Shown piece by piece: positions 1-5,881 of a stretch of DNA of 5,881 nt (positions are counted from its first letter, which is position 1; the number at the start of each line of letters is the position of its first letter). The notes beneath the pieces were generated by a model, which was not told the DNA's origin, did not search any database, and saw nothing but the letters and a program-made list of their open reading frames with translations. Position numbers and translations under genes: made by a program. This DNA is from Spirochaetales bacterium (GTDB lineage: Bacteria > Spirochaetota > Spirochaetia > SZUA-6 > DRHE01), in the NCBI GenBank assembly GCA_016930895.1, contig JAFGFV010000500.1, forward strand, positions 1-5,881, read 5' to 3'.

Positions 1-811
1 CGAGGCTGTACTCGCCGATCCTCTGGCCGGGCTGCAGCGGGATCACGGCGGTTCGCCGGTGCCCCTTCCACTCCTCGAAGATCCCCCGCTGCTCCCCGGG
101 GGCGGCTCCCTTCTCCAGACCCTCGAACAGGTAGAGCTTGCCCTCCCACTGGAAGCCCTGTCCGGGAGACAGGCCGCGCTCCTTTCCCTCGGGGTCGACG
201 AGGACCGCCCATGCCTGATCCGCGTACGAGCTCTGATAGATCCTGACCCGGTTGACCGTGAGCGGCTTGTTGACCTCGATGCGCTGCGCGGGAATCACCG
301 TGGCCCCGCCCCGGCTCACCCGGACCGTGGAGATCCAGTCCTTGGGCCTGCCGTCCTCGTACTGCTCGAAGGTGAAGGAGAGCACCCGCAGGGCGTAGTC
401 TCCGGGAAGGAGGATCTCCTGGCCCTCGGCCAGGTAGACCAGGGCCTCGCGGCGGCCGAGAACCGAGAACAGGGCCCCCACGATCAGCAGGAGGAGTCCC
501 AGGTGGATCAGGTCCGGGCCGTAACGCGGTTTGGCTTTCGCGCGGGCGCGGCGGGCCAGCCGGTCCACGGTGCACACCGAAAGGTTGACCAGAAACAACC
601 CCACGGGCACCAGGAACAGGACCGAGCGGAAGAAGTCGTCGAGCCTGAGACCGATGACCATCCGGGCGGGCAGGCGCGGATACCTGCCGAGGTAGAAGGC
701 CGGGTCCTGCTTCTGGGGAATCAGGGTCGCCAAAATCGACAGCGCGGCGATGATCAGGATCAGGACCACCGCCAGCTTCACGGAGCGCAGGAGCTTGTAG
801 AGGGTCGCCAA
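1..811 (-). CDS. resB: ResB/Ccs1-family cytochrome c biogenesis protein, N-terminal part
   Basis: ResB (Ccs1) is a membrane protein of system II cytochrome c maturation. With the haem-handling partner ResC/CcsA it delivers haem to apocytochromes on the outer face of the membrane. The 270 residues visible open with a ResB-type first helix (about residues 10-32, 'SVKLAVVLILIIAALSI' followed by an IPQ turn). A second helix spans about 62-81 and a third about 100-118, the latter with a His in 'LIHLGLLLL', where the family has a conserved His. Then follows a soluble beta-rich domain with the family signature 'IEVNKPLTVNRVRIYQSSY' (about 178-196). The frame is open to the window edge, so the C-terminal part and last helix are missing. 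I chose TTG at 811: it lies just before helix 1 and has AGGGGGG at 820-814. No ATG lies near helix 1, and the frame stays open further upstream, so the start is less certain than the family. The partner gene resC/ccsA may lie beyond the left edge. Confidence 0.9.
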   Translation of the reverse strand, partial: MATLYKLLRSVKLAVVLILIIAALSILATLIPQKQDPAFYLGRYPRLPARMVIGLRLDDFFRSVLFLVPVGLFLVNLSVCTVDRLARRARAKAKPRYGPDLIHLGLLLLIVGALFSVLGRREALVYLAEGQEILLPGDYALRVLSFTFEQYEDGRPKDWISTVRVSRGGATVIPAQRIEVNKPLTVNRVRIYQSSYADQAWAVLVDPEGKERGLSPGQGFQWEGKLYLFEGLEKGAAPGEQRGIFEEWKGHRRTAVIPLQPGQRIGEYSL

Positions 812-876
812 AGCCCCCCTAAGGTAGCACCCTCGTTCGTGCCAACGCAAGGCCCCGCGGCCTCGGGGGTGCCTGC

Positions 877-888
877 TCTGCGCGCAGA
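877..888. repeat. 12-bp perfect palindrome in divergent promoter region
   Basis: The sequence TCTGCGCGCAGA equals its own reverse complement. It lies between two divergent genes, about 47 bp upstream of the TATAAT box of the plus-strand gene and about 65 bp upstream of the resB start. This is a reasonable position for a dimeric regulator's operator. In GC-rich DNA, GCGC-centred palindromes arise easily by chance, so the regulatory role is only inferred. Confidence 0.3.
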
Positions 889-934
889 CGAGACACCGCG
901 CCAAAAAGAACTCGCGCTGCGGAGCTCTTTCCCG

Positions 935-940
935 TATAAT
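935..940 (+). promoter_or_regulatory. Perfect -10 box (TATAAT) for the phosphatidyltransferase gene
   Basis: TATAAT matches the sigma-70-type -10 consensus exactly and stands out in this GC-rich region. At a 16-19 nt spacer no good -35 hexamer is visible (TCGCGC at 912-917 with a 17-nt spacer is poor). The base triplet before it is CCG, so it is not an extended -10. Transcription would begin near 947, giving a leader of about 28 nt before the ATG at 975. The box overlaps an in-frame ATG at 939, which argues against that upstream start. Confidence 0.65.
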
Positions 941-962
941 GGAGCGCGATGCTGCTTTACAC

Positions 963-966
963 GGAG
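963..966 (+). promoter_or_regulatory. Ribosome-binding site GGAG deciding the ATG 975 start
   Basis: GGAG lies 8 nt before the ATG at 975, an ideal spacing. Together with the TATAAT at 935-940, which overlaps the alternative in-frame ATG at 939, it fixes the start of the phosphatidyltransferase at 975. Confidence 0.7.
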
Positions 967-974
967 TGCAAGCC

Positions 975-1538
975 ATGACCAGGTCCGAGATCCTGACCGT
1001 GCCCAACGGGCTGTCCGCGTCCCGAATCATCCTGCTGCCGGTTCTGTACGTGTTCGCCATTCGAGGGATGGAGCTGGCCTTCGTGATCGCCTACGCCGTG
1101 GTCGGCGCGACGGATTACTTTGACGGGCTGATCGCGAGGAGATTCAACCAGCGGACTACCTTCGGGAAAGCCCTGGACTCCATCGCCGACCTCCCCTTCT
1201 ACGTGTCCTCGGCCTATTTCCTGGCCCGGCTGTATCCGGAGTACCTGCGGCCCAACCGTTTCCTGCTGATCGTGTTCTTCGCTCTGCTGGCCGCCTCCTT
1301 CGTGGTGTCCGCCATCAAGTGCAAGAAACCCATCATGATGCACACCTTCCTGCTGAAGTTGAACGGCGTGCTGGTGTACTTTTGCGTCATCTTCTCGTAT
1401 TTCTTCGACACCACCCTGTTCGTGGCGGGCATCCTGTTCATCTACTACGTGGGTTTCGTCGAGGAGATCCTGATCTTCATCAAGCACGGCGAGGTGGACC
1501 CGGACACGCCGACCATCTACTGCCTGCCGAAGAAATGA
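975..1538 (+). CDS. CDP-alcohol phosphatidyltransferase family protein
   Basis: This 187-residue integral membrane enzyme transfers a phosphatidyl or phospho-alcohol group from a CDP-activated substrate to an alcohol during phospholipid synthesis. The full family signature is intact: D47-x2-D50-G51-x2-A54-R55-x8-G64-x3-D68-x3-D72, whose acidic residues bind the metal and CDP moiety. Hydrophobic segments lie at about 18-43, 72-86, 97-115, 128-143 and 147-168, fitting the usual six-helix fold. The N-terminus 'LTVPNGLSASRIILLPV' resembles PgsA-type starts. After the signature, however, it reads DSIADLPFYV rather than the DPVADK of PgsA, so the acceptor alcohol (glycerol phosphate, serine, inositol phosphate or other) cannot be assigned. 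The C-terminal tail is acidic and polar. An in-frame ATG at 939 was rejected because it overlaps a TATAAT box. The stop TGA (1536-1538) overlaps an ATG (1535) that begins a chain of very short ORFs leading to the next gene. Confidence 0.92.
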   Translation: MTRSEILTVPNGLSASRIILLPVLYVFAIRGMELAFVIAYAVVGATDYFDGLIARRFNQRTTFGKALDSIADLPFYVSSAYFLARLYPEYLRPNRFLLIVFFALLAASFVVSAIKCKKPIMMHTFLLKLNGVLVYFCVIFSYFFDTTLFVAGILFIYYVGFVEEILIFIKHGEVDPDTPTIYCLPKK

Positions 1539-1573
1539 TCGCCCTGCGCCGGCGGGCTGGAGCCGAACGATGA
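1535..1573 (+). other. Mini-ORF 1 of the reinitiation chain (12 codons)
   Basis: The ATG at 1535 overlaps the phosphatidyltransferase stop as ATGA. The frame encodes MIALRRRAGAER and stops at TGA 1571-1573, which itself overlaps the next ATG (1570). Only a weak GAAG precedes its ATG, so translation would depend on ribosomes terminating on the upstream gene. No function is claimed for the peptide. It could equally be a by-product of junction sequence, but it is the first link in an unbroken chain. Confidence 0.4.
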
Positions 1574-1593
1574 GCCCTGGGAAGCAGCCATGA
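1570..1593 (+). other. Mini-ORF 2 of the reinitiation chain (7 codons)
   Basis: The ATG at 1570 lies 7 nt after GGAG (1559-1562) and overlaps the stop of the preceding mini-ORF as ATGA. It encodes MSPGKQP and ends at TGA 1591-1593, overlapping the next ATG at 1590. Its 20-nt span matches the following repeat units at 14 of 20 positions, so it looks like an older, diverged copy of the same unit. The Pro codon before the stop is shared with the next two mini-ORFs. Confidence 0.4.
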
Positions 1594-1613
1594 CCCGAGG
1601 CGCGCAGCCATGA
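1590..1613 (+). other. Mini-ORF 3 of the reinitiation chain (7 codons)
   Basis: The ATG at 1590 has GGGA (1579-1582) 7 nt upstream and overlaps the previous stop as ATGA. It encodes MTRGAQP and ends at TGA 1611-1613, overlapping the ATG at 1610. Inside it, GAGG at 1597-1600 serves as a possible ribosome site for that next ATG. Confidence 0.45.
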
Positions 1614-1633
1614 CCCGAGGCACGCAGCCGTGA
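1610..1633 (+). other. Mini-ORF 4 of the reinitiation chain (7 codons)
   Basis: The ATG at 1610 lies 9 nt after GAGG (1597-1600). It encodes MTRGTQP, one residue different from mini-ORF 3, and ends at TGA 1631-1633. That stop overlaps the GTG start (1630) of the 84-residue gene as GTGA. Its own GAGG (1617-1620) is 9 nt before that GTG. Confidence 0.45.
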
Positions 1634-1884
1634 GCGCGGCCAGGCCCACCGTCAGCTCGAGCCTGCTCGAGGCGATGGCCGACTACTCCGTCAAGATCCG
1701 CAGGATCGTCACCCACGATCCGGGAAACAAGGTCGAGCTCGCCTGCCTGTACGCCGGCATCAGCGGGATCAAGGAGTGCATGACCGCGCTGCGAAACAAC
1801 GGCTTCGTCTCCGACGCGGAGAACCGGCGGCTCGAGGAGGCCCTGGAGGAGCTCTACGCTCTCTGCAGCCCATCGCCGCCCTGA
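1630..1884 (+). CDS. Small hypothetical protein, 84 residues
   Basis: I do not recognise this protein. It starts at GTG 1630 with GAGG 9 nt upstream, and its start overlaps the stop of the preceding mini-ORF. The product looks soluble and mostly helical: a Ser-rich start, a stretch at about 11-30 mixing Lys/Arg with hydrophobics, a central 'NKVELACLYAGISGIKEC' (33-50), then a charged, possibly coiled amphipathic helix at about 60-78 rich in Glu and Leu, and a PSPP end. Three Cys (39, 50, 79) are present but form no clear metal motif. There is no signal peptide or membrane segment. An ATG at 1675 (residue 16), with GAGG only about 2 nt away, is a less likely start. It lies between a phospholipid-synthesis gene and the fakA operon in the same orientation, so a role in lipid metabolism is possible but unproven. 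The frame has good codon-position GC bias and a sensible amino-acid mix, which supports it as real. Confidence 0.65.
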   Translation: MSAARPTVSSSLLEAMADYSVKIRRIVTHDPGNKVELACLYAGISGIKECMTALRNNGFVSDAENRRLEEALEELYALCSPSPP

Positions 1885-1924
1885 GCGGACGGAGGCGTCC
1901 GGGCCCGGGGCCCGAAAATCGACT

Positions 1925-1935
1925 ACACGCCGTGT
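1925..1935. repeat. 11-bp inverted repeat in the -35 region of fakA
   Basis: ACACG-C-CGTGT is a perfect dyad centred on 1930. It lies where the -35 element of the fakA promoter would be (17-nt spacer puts that hexamer at 1924-1929). A regulator bound here would block polymerase, so it is a candidate operator. Short dyads also occur by chance, so confidence is low. Confidence 0.3.
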
Positions 1936-1946
1936 GGATTTCGGGT

Positions 1947-1952
1947 TACAGT
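1947..1952 (+). promoter_or_regulatory. Candidate -10 box (TACAGT) for leaderless fakA transcript
   Basis: TACAGT fits the TAnnnT form of a -10 element and ends 6 nt before the fakA ATG at 1959. Transcription would then start at or next to the A of the ATG. No Shine-Dalgarno sequence is present before this ATG (the preceding bases are GTAGCGTC). Both facts fit a leaderless mRNA. The -35 candidate (TACACG, 1924-1929) matches the consensus poorly. fakA could also be read through from the upstream genes. Confidence 0.5.
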
Positions 1953-1958
1953 AGCGTC

Positions 1959-3650
1959 ATGGCGCTCGTGGGGTCCCGAGAAATCCGCGAGATGCTGGCG
2001 GTGGCCACGGGATGCCTCGAGGCCAAGGCCAGTCAAATCGACGCCCTGAACGTGTTCCCGATCCCCGACGGGGACACGGGAACCAACATGCTTCTGACCA
2101 TGCGTTCGGCGCTCCGCGCCGTGCGCGCCGCCGAGGATCAGGGGTTCGCGGCGGCAGTCGAGGCCGCCGGGCGGGGCGCCCTGCTGGGGGCGCGCGGCAA
2201 CAGCGGGGTCATCCTTTCGCAGTTTCTGGTGGGCATGTCCCAGGAGCTGAGCGGCGGGACCGCTATCGGCTGCGCGGAGCTGGGCCGGGCCTTCCGCCGG
2301 GGCAGCGATCTGGCCTACCAGGCAGTGAGCGAGCCGGTGGAAGGCACCATGCTCACCGTAATGCGGGAGGCCTCGGAGGCGACCCGCGCCTTCGAGGAGT
2401 CCGGTCAGCTGGCGATCTGCCTCGAGGCGGCCCTGCGCGCCGCTGGGGAAGCCCTGGCCAGGACCCCGGAGCTGCTGCCGGTGCTTCGCGCCGCCGGGGT
2501 CGTGGACGCCGGCGGTCAGGGCTTGTACACCCTGCTGGAAGGGGCGTTGCTCTACGCGCGGGGCCAGCGGGAGGCCGTATCGGAGGATCGCCTCCGGCTG
2601 GTTCCGGCGCGGATTCCAGCGGGGCGCCCGGGCGCGGAGGCCCCAACGGAGGCTCCGGCGGAGGCTGCCGGAGGAGGGGCGGGGGCGCCGTCCTTCGGCT
2701 ACTGCGTCGAGTTCGTTCTGGACCACGGGAACCGCAGCACGGACCAGGTGACCCGGCTGCTCGCGGCTCAGGGGAGCTCGCTGGTAGTGGCAGGGGCGCG
2801 GGCTGCGGCGAGCGGAGCCCAGAGTGGGCGCCACTCTCTCGAGGCTGATATCCCGGTCAGGGTGCACATCCACTGCGGCGATCCCGAGGAGCTGATCCGC
2901 CAGGCCCGGACCCTGGGCGGCGTCGAGCAGGTCCAGATCCGGGACATGACTCGACAGCACGCGGAGTACCAGCGCCGGCGCGCGACTCCCGGGGACGGCT
3001 CGGCTCCCCAAGCCGTGGCCGTGGTTCCAGGGGCGGGCCTGGCGAAAGTGTTCCTGAGCCTTGGGGCTTCCGTGGTCGTGGTATCCTCTCGAAGCCCGAG
3101 CGCGGAAGAGCTGCTGGACGCGGTGGAGTCGGCCCCGGTCGCGGAGGTGGTGCTCCTGCCGAACCACAAGAACATCGTGCCCGTGGCCGAGCAGGCCCGG
3201 AAGCTGAGCTCGAGGCGGGTCATCGTGGTTCCCACCGTTACGGTGCCGCAGGGGGTCGCCGCCATGGTCGCCTTCGCCGGCGAATCCGGCTTGGAACTCA
3301 CCAGCCGGCGCATGCTCGAGGCGCTGGCGGAGGTCTACTCCATCGAGGTCTGCCGGGCCGTGCGCAGCACGCGCCTGAACGGTGTCAGGGTCGCGAAGAA
3401 CCAGTTCACGGGCTACCTGGATGGAGAGCTGGTCGTCGCCCGCCCCTCCGCGGAGCAGGCAGTCCGGGCCTCCCTCGAGCGTCTTGCCCCGGCAGACGAA
3501 GCGATCGTCACTCTGTACCACGGAGCCGACGTTCCGGGGGAGCGCGCCCGGGAGCTCGCTTCTGTGCTGCGCAGGGACCTTCCCGGGGTGAGCGTTGAGG
3601 TCCTCTCCGGCGGGCAAGCGCTCTACGACTACCTGGTCGGAGTGGAATAG
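1959..3650 (+). CDS. fakA: Fatty acid kinase FakA (DAK2-domain / YloV family)
   Basis: FakA phosphorylates the carboxyl group of a fatty acid held by FakB, using ATP, to give acyl phosphate. The 563-residue product matches the usual 540-560 residues. Residues about 8-203 are the DAK2 (DhaL-like) kinase domain, with the ATP/metal loop PDGDTGTNM (36-44), GARGNSGVILSQF (77-89) and VVDAGGQGLY (181-190). A Pro/Ala/Gly-rich linker (about 217-245) leads to the middle domain (about 247-335), which keeps a Cys at 249, HIH at 303-305 and RQH at 332-334, candidate metal ligands in this family. The C-terminal YloV/DegV-like domain (about 352-563) includes 'LPNHKNIVPVAEQA' (400-413) and 'VVPTVTVPQGVAAM' (423-436). 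I chose ATG 1959 because it sits just before the conserved start of the DAK2 domain and next to a TACAGT box. GTG 1932 in the same frame is possible but has no ribosome site. It is followed after 11 nt by its partner gene. Confidence 0.93.
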   Translation: MALVGSREIREMLAVATGCLEAKASQIDALNVFPIPDGDTGTNMLLTMRSALRAVRAAEDQGFAAAVEAAGRGALLGARGNSGVILSQFLVGMSQELSGGTAIGCAELGRAFRRGSDLAYQAVSEPVEGTMLTVMREASEATRAFEESGQLAICLEAALRAAGEALARTPELLPVLRAAGVVDAGGQGLYTLLEGALLYARGQREAVSEDRLRLVPARIPAGRPGAEAPTEAPAEAAGGGAGAPSFGYCVEFVLDHGNRSTDQVTRLLAAQGSSLVVAGARAAASGAQSGRHSLEADIPVRVHIHCGDPEELIRQARTLGGVEQVQIRDMTRQHAEYQRRRATPGDGSAPQAVAVVPGAGLAKVFLSLGASVVVVSSRSPSAEELLDAVESAPVAEVVLLPNHKNIVPVAEQARKLSSRRVIVVPTVTVPQGVAAMVAFAGESGLELTSRRMLEALAEVYSIEVCRAVRSTRLNGVRVAKNQFTGYLDGELVVARPSAEQAVRASLERLAPADEAIVTLYHGADVPGERARELASVLRRDLPGVSVEVLSGGQALYDYLVGVE

Positions 3651-3656
3651 GAGGGG
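3650..3656 (+). promoter_or_regulatory. Strong ribosome-binding site of the fakB gene
   Basis: GGAGGGG begins at the last base of the fakA stop codon and lies 5 nt (7 nt counting from the GGAGG core) before the ATG at 3662. It is the clearest Shine-Dalgarno in the window and contrasts with its absence before fakA. Confidence 0.8.
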
Positions 3657-3661
3657 CGTGC

Positions 3662-4540
3662 ATGGTCAGGGTCGTGACGGACAGCGTCGCCGACCTGCCT
3701 TCCCGGGTGGCGGCGGAGCTCGGGATCACCGTGGTCCCGCTCATCGTGCGTTTCGGCACCGAGGAGTACCGCGACGGGGTGGACCTGAGCACCGAAGAGT
3801 TCTACGAGAAGCTTGCCGGCAGCAGCGACTTCCCGGTGACCGCCACCCCGTCGCCTCAGGATTTCGCCCAAGCCTACGACCGCCTGGCGGAACAAGCCGA
3901 CGGGGTCCTGGCGGTCATGCTCACCTCCAGACTGAGCGGGACCTACCAGGTGGCCCTCAAGGGCCGGGAGCTCATGAAACGCCGCTGCCGGGTCGAGGTC
4001 CTGGACTCGCGCCTGGCCACCATGGCGCAGGGCTTCGTGGCCATGAAGGCCGCGGAGGCCGCCCGGGACGGGGCCTCCCTGGAGGAGGCCCTGGCGGTGG
4101 CCCGCCGGGAGATGCCACGCTCGGACATGCTTTGCTGTTTCGACACCCTGGAGTACCTGCGCCGGGGAGGGCGGATCGGGGCGGCCCAGGCCTTCCTGGG
4201 ATCGATGCTCAGGATCCACCCCATGATCGCGCTGCGGGACGGGGTGGTGATGCCGGCGGGCAGGACCCGCTCGCGGGCCAAGGCGGTGGACCGCCTCTAT
4301 GAGTACGTCGCGGGCTACGAGCGCATCGACGAGCTGGCGGTCGAGCACACCGCCTGCCCGGAGGAGGCGGAGGCGTTCATCGAACGGCTTTCTGCTCTCT
4401 ACCCCCGGGAGCGGATCTACAGCTCCAAGATGACCCCGGTCATCGGTGCACACACCGGCCCCGGGCTCCTGCTGGTCGCGGTGCTTGGCGACAGGCGGAC
4501 GGAAGGAGCCGGCGGCGGGGAAGGAGCCGGTCGGGGATGA
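3662..4540 (+). CDS. fakB: DegV-family fatty-acid-binding protein (FakB)
   Basis: FakB proteins carry a fatty acid, present its carboxylate to FakA and release the acyl phosphate to membrane acyltransferases. The 292-residue product has the usual DegV length and signatures: VTDSVADLP (5-13), the ligand-region segment FPVTATPSP (57-65), SRLSGTYQ (89-96), VLDSR (113-117), LEYLRRGGRIG (163-173) and IGAHTGPG (261-268), whose His lies near the carboxylate in known family members. Two deviations are visible: the usual Thr-Ser pair of the TSxPSP-like motif reads Thr60-Ala61, and the common 'IKP' after GGRI reads IHP (185-187). The last 13 residues are a Gly/Glu/Arg tail created by an 18-bp duplication (4501-4536) and are probably disordered. 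No signal peptide or membrane segment is seen, so it acts in the cytoplasm. Its position directly after fakA and overlapping plsY makes the FakB role more likely than an unspecific DegV label. Confidence 0.9.
   Translation: MVRVVTDSVADLPSRVAAELGITVVPLIVRFGTEEYRDGVDLSTEEFYEKLAGSSDFPVTATPSPQDFAQAYDRLAEQADGVLAVMLTSRLSGTYQVALKGRELMKRRCRVEVLDSRLATMAQGFVAMKAAEAARDGASLEEALAVARREMPRSDMLCCFDTLEYLRRGGRIGAAQAFLGSMLRIHPMIALRDGVVMPAGRTRSRAKAVDRLYEYVAGYERIDELAVEHTACPEEAEAFIERLSALYPRERIYSSKMTPVIGAHTGPGLLLVAVLGDRRTEGAGGGEGAGRG
4501..4536 (+). repeat. 18-bp tandem duplication containing the plsY ribosome site
   Basis: GGAAGGAGCCGG occurs at 4501-4512 and again at 4519-4530, in an 18-bp tandem unit of which 15 positions match. 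The second copy places AAGGAG (4521-4526) 10 nt before the plsY ATG at 4537, and GGGG directly precedes the ATG. Because 18 is a multiple of three, the duplication adds six residues (EGAGGG then EGAGRG) to the end of FakB without a frameshift. Confidence 0.8.
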
Positions 4541-5238
4541 CCGGTGTCTCTCCGGGCTGGTTCGTTGTGGAGCTGCTGGTGTCTCTGGCGGCGGCCTACC
4601 TGTGCGGGTCGGTCAACTACGCCATCATCGTGACCCGCCTGGTCTCGGGCCAGGACATCCGGGAGCTCGGCAACCGCAATCCCGGCACCGCCAACGTGGC
4701 CAGGAGCATCGGCAAGGGATGGGCGGCGGTGGTGTTCTTCGCCGACCTGTTCAAAGGCCTGCTCCCTGTGCTCCTGGCCCGCCGGGCGGTGTTCCCGGAC
4801 GGGGGAGCTCTCCAGACCTTGGCCCTGGCAGCGGTGGGGATCGCGGCCATCGCCGGGCACTGCAGGCCGGTGTTCTTCGGGTTTCGCGGCGGCGGGGGAA
4901 TCGCCACGGCGGTCGGGGTGTACCTGTTCTTTATTCCCGCGGAGCTCATCATCTCGATGCTCGCAGGCTTCGCCGCGGTCATGCTCTTCGTCAGGAGGGT
5001 TCGCTTCCGCCTGGGGCGCTGGATCCCGATCATCTTCGTGGCGACCGCCCCGGTGCTGACGCTGGTCCTGAGCCTGCTGGTGCGCGTCCCTCTGCCCGGA
5101 GGGATCTCGATCGGCGGACATGCCTGGCCCGTGGTGGCCGCCGTGTTCGCTATTTCCCTGTTTCTGATCGCCATGAACCGGCGCCTGCTGGCGGGCACCT
5201 TCAGGGAGTACGGCGACACCCACGCTCCAGAGACGTAA
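4537..5238 (+). CDS. plsY: PlsY-type glycerol-3-phosphate acyltransferase, divergent
   Basis: PlsY moves an acyl group from acyl phosphate to glycerol-3-phosphate, giving lysophosphatidate, the first committed step of phospholipid synthesis. The 233-residue product is slightly longer than the usual 195-215 and has about six hydrophobic segments (8-28, 61-80, 92-108, 124-153, 162-182, 195-212). Motif 1 is recognisable as GSVNYAI (24-30) with DIRELGNRNPGTANVAR (40-56), against the usual DIR..GSGNxGATN. Motif 2 is GHCRPVFFGFRGGGGIAT (107-124), with Gly120 where most PlsY have Lys (GGKG). Motif 3 is seen only loosely in NRRLLAGTFREYG (214-226). It may therefore be a distinct PlsY-like subfamily with altered substrate binding, although the neighbouring fakA and fakB support an acyl-phosphate donor. 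The start ATG overlaps the fakB stop as ATGA, with AAGGAG 10 nt upstream, so translation is probably coupled. The stop is TAA 5236-5238. Confidence 0.87.
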   Translation: MTGVSPGWFVVELLVSLAAAYLCGSVNYAIIVTRLVSGQDIRELGNRNPGTANVARSIGKGWAAVVFFADLFKGLLPVLLARRAVFPDGGALQTLALAAVGIAAIAGHCRPVFFGFRGGGGIATAVGVYLFFIPAELIISMLAGFAAVMLFVRRVRFRLGRWIPIIFVATAPVLTLVLSLLVRVPLPGGISIGGHAWPVVAAVFAISLFLIAMNRRLLAGTFREYGDTHAPET

Positions 5239-5250
5239 GTGCGGCAGCGG

Positions 5251-5284
5251 CGATCTGCCCGCGGCGCGCGCGGCGGGCAGATCG
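5251..5284. terminator. 12-bp stem hairpin between convergent genes
   Basis: CGATCTGCCCGC (5251-5262) pairs perfectly with GCGGGCAGATCG (5273-5284) around a 10-nt loop of alternating G and C. It begins 12 nt after the plsY stop and ends 20 nt before the stop of the opposing gene, as expected of a shared bidirectional terminator. Neither side is followed by a T-run (TCTGGATGG on plus, CCGCTGCCGC on minus). It would thus be a non-canonical, U-less terminator, or an RNA-stabilising 3' hairpin. The remaining bases of the 66-nt gap (5239-5304) show nothing else. Confidence 0.7.
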
Positions 5285-5304
5285 TCTGGATGGGCCGGGT
5301 CGAC

Positions 5305-5881
5305 CTATCGGGAGCGCGCCTCCAGCTCTTCCAGCACCTTCTGCAATGCCATGATGCGTTCCCCGTAAGCGGCGAAGTCGCCGCCGCTCAGGGCTTGCGT
5401 CGCGCCGTTGTACTCCCGGAGGGCCTGGTCGATCAGCCCGCGCAGCTCTTCGGGGGTCACCGCCCCGCCTGCTGATGCCGCTGCGGCGCCGGCCGCCAGG
5501 GCCTCGGCTTGCTCCCGCGCCGTCGGGGTCCCGGGCGCCGTCGCTCCCGGGCGGGCTCCGAACAGCTTCGCGAGCGCCTCGTCCAGGGTCGGCGCGAACG
5601 ACAGCCGGTCCTGGTAGGCGGCGATCATGATCTTGAGCTCGGGCAGCTGGCTGTTGGCGGACACCAGGTACACGGGCTCCACGTAAATCAGGGAGTCACG
5701 GACCGGGATGACCAGGAGATTCCCCCGGATGATCTCAGAGCCGCTCTGGCTCCACAGGGTGAACAGCTGCGAGATCTCGCTGTTCTGGTCGATGCGGGAC
5801 TCGATCTGCAGGGGCCCGAAGATGAGCTTCTCCTTCGGGAACTGGTACTCGATCATCCGGCCGTACTGCTCCGGGTCGCAG
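5305..5881 (-). CDS. UPF0182 (COG1615) membrane protein, C-terminal part
   Basis: This is the last 191 residues of a protein whose start lies beyond the right edge. UPF0182 proteins are large (roughly 900 residues), with N-terminal membrane helices and a big extracytoplasmic part. Their function is unknown. The family's C-terminal signatures are clear, numbered from the first full codon in the window: DPEQYGRMIEYQFPK (2-16), GPLQIESRIDQNSEIS (22-37), LWSQSGSEIIRGNLLVIPV (42-60), DSLIYVEPVYL (62-72) and LPELKIMIAAY (79-89), then the TLDEALAKLFG segment (98-108). A low-complexity Ala/Gly/Pro/Thr linker (about 109-141) is followed by a helical tail with 'PEELRGLIDQALREYN' (143-158), ending in a Glu/Leu/Arg-rich helix. 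The stop is TAG at 5307-5305. It converges on plsY and is probably unrelated to it in function. Confidence 0.92.
   Translation of the reverse strand, partial: CDPEQYGRMIEYQFPKEKLIFGPLQIESRIDQNSEISQLFTLWSQSGSEIIRGNLLVIPVRDSLIYVEPVYLVSANSQLPELKIMIAAYQDRLSFAPTLDEALAKLFGARPGATAPGTPTAREQAEALAAGAAAASAGGAVTPEELRGLIDQALREYNGATQALSGGDFAAYGERIMALQKVLEELEARSR

Follow-up and report, generated by a model that had tools for sequence, protein, structure and literature searches.

A 20-bp tandem repeat with overlapping stop and start codons forms a chain of mini-open reading frames between a phosphatidyltransferase gene and the gene of an 84-residue protein

We analysed a 5,881-nt stretch of DNA (hereafter, the window) from a Spirochaetales bacterium (contig JAFGFV010000500.1, positions 1 to 5,881), in which a CDP-alcohol phosphatidyltransferase gene is followed by a chain of four very short open reading frames (mini-ORFs) that leads to the gene of an uncharacterized 84-residue protein. 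The base composition of the window is 68% G+C. On its + strand lie the phosphatidyltransferase gene (975–1538), the 84-residue gene (1630–1884), a FakA-like gene (1959–3650), a DegV gene (3662–4540) and a glycerol-3-phosphate acyltransferase gene (4537–5238), and ResB-like and UPF0182 genes occupy the opposite strand at the two window ends. The gap between the first two genes, 91 nt in length, is filled by the chain.

The stop codon of the phosphatidyltransferase gene (TGA, 1536–1538) overlaps the ATG at 1535, the first of five stop–start overlaps of 4 nt each, all of the form RTGA (R being A or G), at 1535, 1570, 1590, 1610 and 1630. Between them run, on the + strand, mini-ORF 1 of 12 codons (1535–1573, encoding MIALRRRAGAER) and three mini-ORFs of 7 codons, namely, mini-ORF 2 (1570–1593, MSPGKQP), mini-ORF 3 (1590–1613, MTRGAQP) and mini-ORF 4 (1610–1633, MTRGTQP), the TGA of which overlaps the GTG at 1630. 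Stop and start codons overlapping by 4 nt or 1 nt are the mark of a coupled gene pair, and the 4-nt form is present at all five junctions. The overlaps and the lengths of 12, 7, 7 and 7 codons had been described in a first-pass annotation of the window, and proved exact to the base. The same annotation had placed purine-rich sites 7–9 nt before four of the five starts, and these positions were confirmed: GGAG (1559–1562, spacer 7) before 1570, GGGA (1579–1582, spacer 7) before 1590, GAGG (1597–1600, spacer 9) before 1610 and GAGG (1617–1620, spacer 9) before GTG 1630. The calculated pairing of these Shine–Dalgarno (SD)-like sites with the 16S rRNA tail was −5.6, −4.2, −5.9 and −5.9 kcal/mol, respectively, which gave unexceptional ranks of 13, 16, 9 and 9 (ties counted) among the 34 RTGA sites on the + strand of the window. 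Upstream of 1535, the start of mini-ORF 1, no purine-rich site could be read from the sequence, and this start ranked 33rd of the 34. Strong SD sites were rejected as a proof of use, since the ranks were ordinary.

Three of the four mini-ORFs coincide with a tandem repeat. Tandem Repeats Finder reported an array at 1584–1633 with a period of 20 bp, 2.5 copies, a score of 86 and 93% matches. Within it, unit 2 (1590–1609, + strand) and unit 3 (1610–1629, + strand, containing the GAGG at 1617–1620) agree at 19/20 positions, and a diverged unit 1 (1570–1589, + strand) agrees with units 2 and 3 at 14/20 and 15/20 positions, respectively. The columns ATGA, CC, GG and GCAGCC are invariant across the three units. 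Outside ATGA, the agreement of unit 1 with unit 3 (11/16) was equalled by 9 of the 5,865 16-mers of the window, and that with unit 2 (10/16) by 29 of them. The sequence at 1630 matches unit 1 at 8/16 positions, a level equalled by 384 of the 5,865 16-mers and unconvincing as a fourth unit, and no further copy with up to three mismatches was found inside the window. The array consists of head-to-tail copies of one unit, as does a minisatellite. Judging from their similarity, units 2 and 3 are probably a recent duplicate and unit 1 an older copy. The pattern M-x-x-G-x-Q-P, to which the first-pass annotation had drawn attention, is indeed present in three mini-ORFs, but this pattern and the repeated overlaps bear the mark of a 20-bp unit duplicated in tandem rather than of cistrons that evolved separately.

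To judge the chance expectation, chains were counted on both strands with ATG or GTG starts and mini-ORFs of 2–15 codons. This relay apart, neither strand of the window contains a chain of at least three nodes. In 500 dinucleotide shuffles, four-node chains occurred at 0.014 per window, or at 0.024 per window when TTG starts were added, and five-node chains never occurred under either setting. In 800 kb of G001, a genome of 56% G+C that carries the nearest relative of the 84-residue protein among the four found (see below), we counted 539 two-node chains, 19 three-node chains and none longer. A forward link of 2–15 codons was present at 4 of the 34 + strand RTGA sites of the window, all four in this chain. 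Taken as independent events, five overlaps are beyond chance; however, a single 20-bp unit, present in copies, underlies three of the steps.

The period itself accounts for these steps. For an ATG reading into its own copy to meet the copied TGA in frame, the period must have remainder 2 when divided by 3, as 20 does, and a relay is the consequence. We triplicated in silico every segment of 10–40 bp that contained a + strand RTGA lying at least 60 bases from the window ends, the relay's own sites included. A relay was formed in 6402 of 7310 triplications (87.6%) with periods of remainder 2, including 538 of the 578 with a period of 20 bp, and in 0 of 15878 with other periods (0/7650 at remainder 0 and 0/8228 at remainder 1). 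Three of the four mini-ORFs, therefore, require nothing beyond a 20-bp tandem repeat.

In our preferred reading, to which we assign a probability of about 60%, the relay represents a minisatellite of small size situated on a translation-initiation site, along which ribosomes may pass by termination–reinitiation and so bridge the 91 nt. A 20-bp piece comprising an SD-like site, a spacer and ATGA would have been copied in tandem, probably once in an older event that left the diverged unit 1 and once recently, giving units 2 and 3. Each copied ATG would then read exactly 7 codons and stop on the next RTGA, so that the relay would be a by-product of the period. Ribosomes ending at 1538 may re-initiate at 1535, 1570, 1590, 1610 and finally at GTG 1630, and the SD-like sites of the repeats may also capture new ribosomes. 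A ribosome covers 34–38 nt (PMC5972666), and starts 20 nt apart could therefore hardly be occupied together; the array would resemble a single landing zone more than four metered gates. Re-initiation at 4-nt overlaps, on which the first-pass annotation had relied, is documented (PMC6728339, PMC10666635), which makes ribosome passage down the chain plausible. Among the overlapping Escherichia coli pairs reported in PMC6728339, coupling was found in all but one, with an efficiency that differed among gene pairs; with a gap of 38 nt, the results available from PMC10666635 give a decrease of re-initiation by 80–90% in two gene pairs and no re-initiation in a third. Since re-initiation in E. coli depends so strongly on overlap, a gap of 91 nt would be expected to abolish coupling, and the array may serve to bridge it. 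Translation of the mini-ORFs, the coupling and any benefit are what we infer from the sequence, both genes being taken to share a single transcript.

The end point of the chain is well supported by the 84-residue family, which has no Pfam match. Besides its own record, 25 homologues were found (E≤1e-3), of which 23 begin at the alignment column of GTG 1630; this codon is therefore very probably the true start of the gene, although the homologues' starts are themselves predictions. The same agreement led us to reject an N-terminal extension of the protein broken by a frameshift. We likewise rejected a C-terminal extension of the phosphatidyltransferase, the end of which lies within a few residues of that of most aligned homologues. 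The family has a strongly conserved core, which reads ELACLYAGISGI in the window. Its named members belong to Spirochaetota, the remainder are unnamed sequences, and the closest homologues are on metagenome contigs.

A scan of genome contigs with this family identified four genomes, all Spirochaetaceae or Spirochaetales metagenome-assembled genomes (MAGs). In all four (loci L001–L004), the 84-residue gene also begins with ATGA. None of the four carries a chain of RTGA overlaps at this gene, and none yielded a phosphatidyltransferase of this type in the 2.4–4 kb upstream (tblastn, E≤1). Short ORFs with TTG starts, of 4, 2 and 2 codons, end on this ATGA in L001, L003 and L004, respectively; at L002, a single 16-codon ORF with an ATG start (2405–2454) ends there. 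Among 392 genomes from the phylum of G001, the family was found in G001 alone. The phosphatidyltransferase had one match in these genomes (49%, in G381), a locus without a relative of the 84-residue protein. The search for the junction in viral contigs gave nothing, and neither a second copy of the phosphatidyltransferase/84-residue gene junction nor a copy-number variant was found in the genome and viral contigs searched.

In the same 392 genomes, we searched for four RTGA at 20-base spacing, with the pattern read backwards as the control, and examined the first match at each of 30 fetched loci. A relay was present at 12 of the 30 loci (10 of 21 distinct arrays) and absent from 18. One of them, L061 (G336:C45:85439–85502, − strand), is an independent instance of this architecture, built from an unrelated 10-bp repeat of which alternate copies take part in the chain. 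There, the TGA of a 446-residue HATPase_c_4 gene overlaps the first ATG, three mini-ORFs of 7 codons follow, and the last of these stops on an ATG that belongs to a gene for a type I restriction protein (HSDR_N, SWI2_SNF2). The true start of the restriction gene is uncertain, owing to an in-frame ATG ten codons further upstream, within the repeat. When 23 genomes were searched with this locus, two matched, G336 itself included; the other (L081 in G400) was 78% identical over 204 of the 501 query bases. Because this match covers the downstream gene only, the lack of an RTGA chain at the start of the restriction gene in the stretch viewed carries little weight. A longer relay was found at L069 (G370:C3, approximately 710750–710973, − strand), where a 20-bp minisatellite forms 18 chained GTGA nodes, many units of which read V-S-S-R-A-T-P-stop or nearly so. 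The stop codon of a FeoB-like gene (named from its sequence) overlaps the first node.

Several of these results weigh against our preferred reading and favour its strongest rival, in which the repeat is a neutral relic: a duplication without effect, the 84-residue gene being translated independently from GTG 1630 with the GAGG at 1617–1620, and the mini-ORFs being silent or tolerated. We regard this explanation as possible, though doubtful. The period-20 pattern occurred in 16 of the 392 genomes (65 sites) and the backwards control in 19 (92 sites); there is no enrichment of the spacing, and repeats that share it arise without any excess over the control. Many of these sites are plainly tandem repeats. 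Among the 30 fetched loci, 20 had neither a relay nor a gene junction, or had a relay alone, and only one array lay between two long genes. The 18-node relay at L069 ends on an ORF of 69 residues, without a recognized coupled gene, and may serve no gene at all. Together with the lack of enrichment, this locus suggests that a relay alone implies no function. In the window, GTG 1630 retains an ordinary SD-like site of its own, 9 nt upstream, and the gene could initiate alone; moreover, the four relatives encode the 84-residue family without an RTGA chain. The link of mini-ORF 1 (1535 to 1570, 35 nt) lies outside the repeat and needs a separate coincidence, because no + strand RTGA of the window outside the chain has such a link. 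Against neutrality, the chain begins exactly on the upstream stop codon, and unit 1, although changed at 5–6 of 20 sites, has lost neither its ATGA nor its open frame nor its SD-like site. The latter point is weak, as ATGA alone would survive by luck in approximately 21–28% of cases.

The first-pass annotation had proposed that the chain could meter the downstream protein by stepwise loss of ribosomes; the copy number would then set a low ratio of the 84-residue protein to the phosphatidyltransferase. We found no support for this proposal and judge it quite improbable. A pass rate of 0.5 per junction would indeed leave 3% of ribosomes after five junctions, by arithmetic, and in published work the efficiency of re-initiation differs from one gene pair to another (PMC6728339); however, the SD-like sites at four of the five starts may add ribosomes instead, variants of this junction with another number of units were not seen, and the axe-txe results described below (PMC8708949) make the direction of any effect unpredictable. 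Least probable of all, and hardly to be expected, is a role of the direct repeats in the DNA itself, such as that of an operator, the mini-ORFs being incidental. The repeat precedes a gene and has a period near two helical turns, but a consensus scan of 800–2100 detected no promoter-like or terminator-like site, and the RNA folding of 1500–1680 was unremarkable (z 0.17), for which reason RNA structure was also rejected. The retention of GCAGCC before ATGA in all three units neither favours nor excludes a protein-binding site.

The first-pass annotation knew of no described serial chain of minicistrons. A search of open-licence PMC papers found none that names such a chain; nevertheless, mini-ORFs coupled at −4 nt have been published for mycobacterial interspersed repetitive units (MIRUs), which occur in tandem. 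The senX3-regX3 gap contains three identical MIRUs of 77 bp in strain H37Rv, and two of 77 bp and one of 53 bp in CDC1551 (PMC4213456). Both lengths, like the 20 bp of the window, leave remainder 2 on division by 3, and from the coupling statement and these lengths, tandem MIRUs would be predicted to form serial relays. The window shares with MIRUs the geometry of −4-nt coupling between an internal ORF and the gene that follows, at GTGA 1630 as at all internal junctions. In contrast, MIRU units are given as 40–100 bp (PMC2734929), and the window has a 20-bp unit, 7-codon ORFs and no further copy within it. The principle is thus already known through MIRUs, and the window is a variant with a 20-bp unit, not itself a MIRU. 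PMC2734929 cites work of 1997 in which the functions proposed for such repeats include differential translation within operons.

Other systems resemble the window in part. Upstream of Mycobacterium tuberculosis fpg1 (VNTR3239), variable tandem repeats likewise fill a gap between two genes, one that measures 1–54 bp in the other mycobacteria tabulated, but the units are of 55 and 79 bp (remainder 1) and start 40 bp after the upstream stop codon; longer arrays accompany higher mRNA levels, and the accessible text has no match for 'translational coupling' (PMC2734929). Since the fpg1 units leave remainder 1, not every intergenic repeat obeys the rule of remainder 2. In bicistronic designs and constructs with short nonsense ORFs, a short ORF just upstream of a gene, with an SD sequence near its stop codon, raises translation of that gene (PMC13255528); these designs share the position of the short ORF directly upstream of the gene, and differ in being synthetic, with one leader cistron against the natural four. 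The natural bacterial minigenes mg1 and mg2 of axe-txe act in cis on the next gene: inactivation of both lowered the output more than 8-fold, and deletion of the entire leader increased it by 30% (PMC8708949). They differ from the present chain in being two in number, with an mg2 of two codons, and no tandem repeat or succession of 4-nt overlaps is mentioned in the available parts of that report.

A broader generalization, which we consider unlikely, is that the reading frame acts as a filter: at coupled junctions, RTGA-containing units of remainder 2 would survive best, each copy extending the chain of re-initiation and holding the two genes in coupling as the gap between them widens. Under this equally tentative scheme, the window might be the short-unit, non-MIRU case, L061 an independent case and the 77- and 53-bp MIRUs the long form. 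The 55- and 79-bp repeats of fpg1, with remainder 1, and the lack of enrichment of period-20 RTGA spacing argue against it. If ribosomes do run down the chain, the array would be a compact natural bridge by which two genes are kept translationally coupled across 91 nt. A simple rule, a period of remainder 2, would then let tandem repeats expand at a coupled junction without uncoupling it, and such arrays would test how many successive re-initiations a bacterial ribosome tolerates. If they do not, the window is a caution against impressive chains of mini-ORFs, which repeats with periods of 20, 23 and so on fabricate.

The upstream gene (975–1538, + strand) encodes a CDP-alcohol phosphatidyltransferase of 187 residues (Pfam PF01066, E 5.5e-20). 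It has 208 homologues (E≤1e-3), the best with 89% identity over the full length; its start falls on a common alignment column in 16 of 20 aligned homologues, and those of the 120 listed matches that bear names come from Clostridia and related MAGs. This gene is itself preceded by a 9-codon mini-ORF (949–978, MLLYTECKP), which also ends in a proline codon followed by the stop codon, and the TGA of which overlaps the ATG at 975. Of the 29 RTGA sites that do not belong to the relay, 2 have an upstream mini-ORF of this sort.
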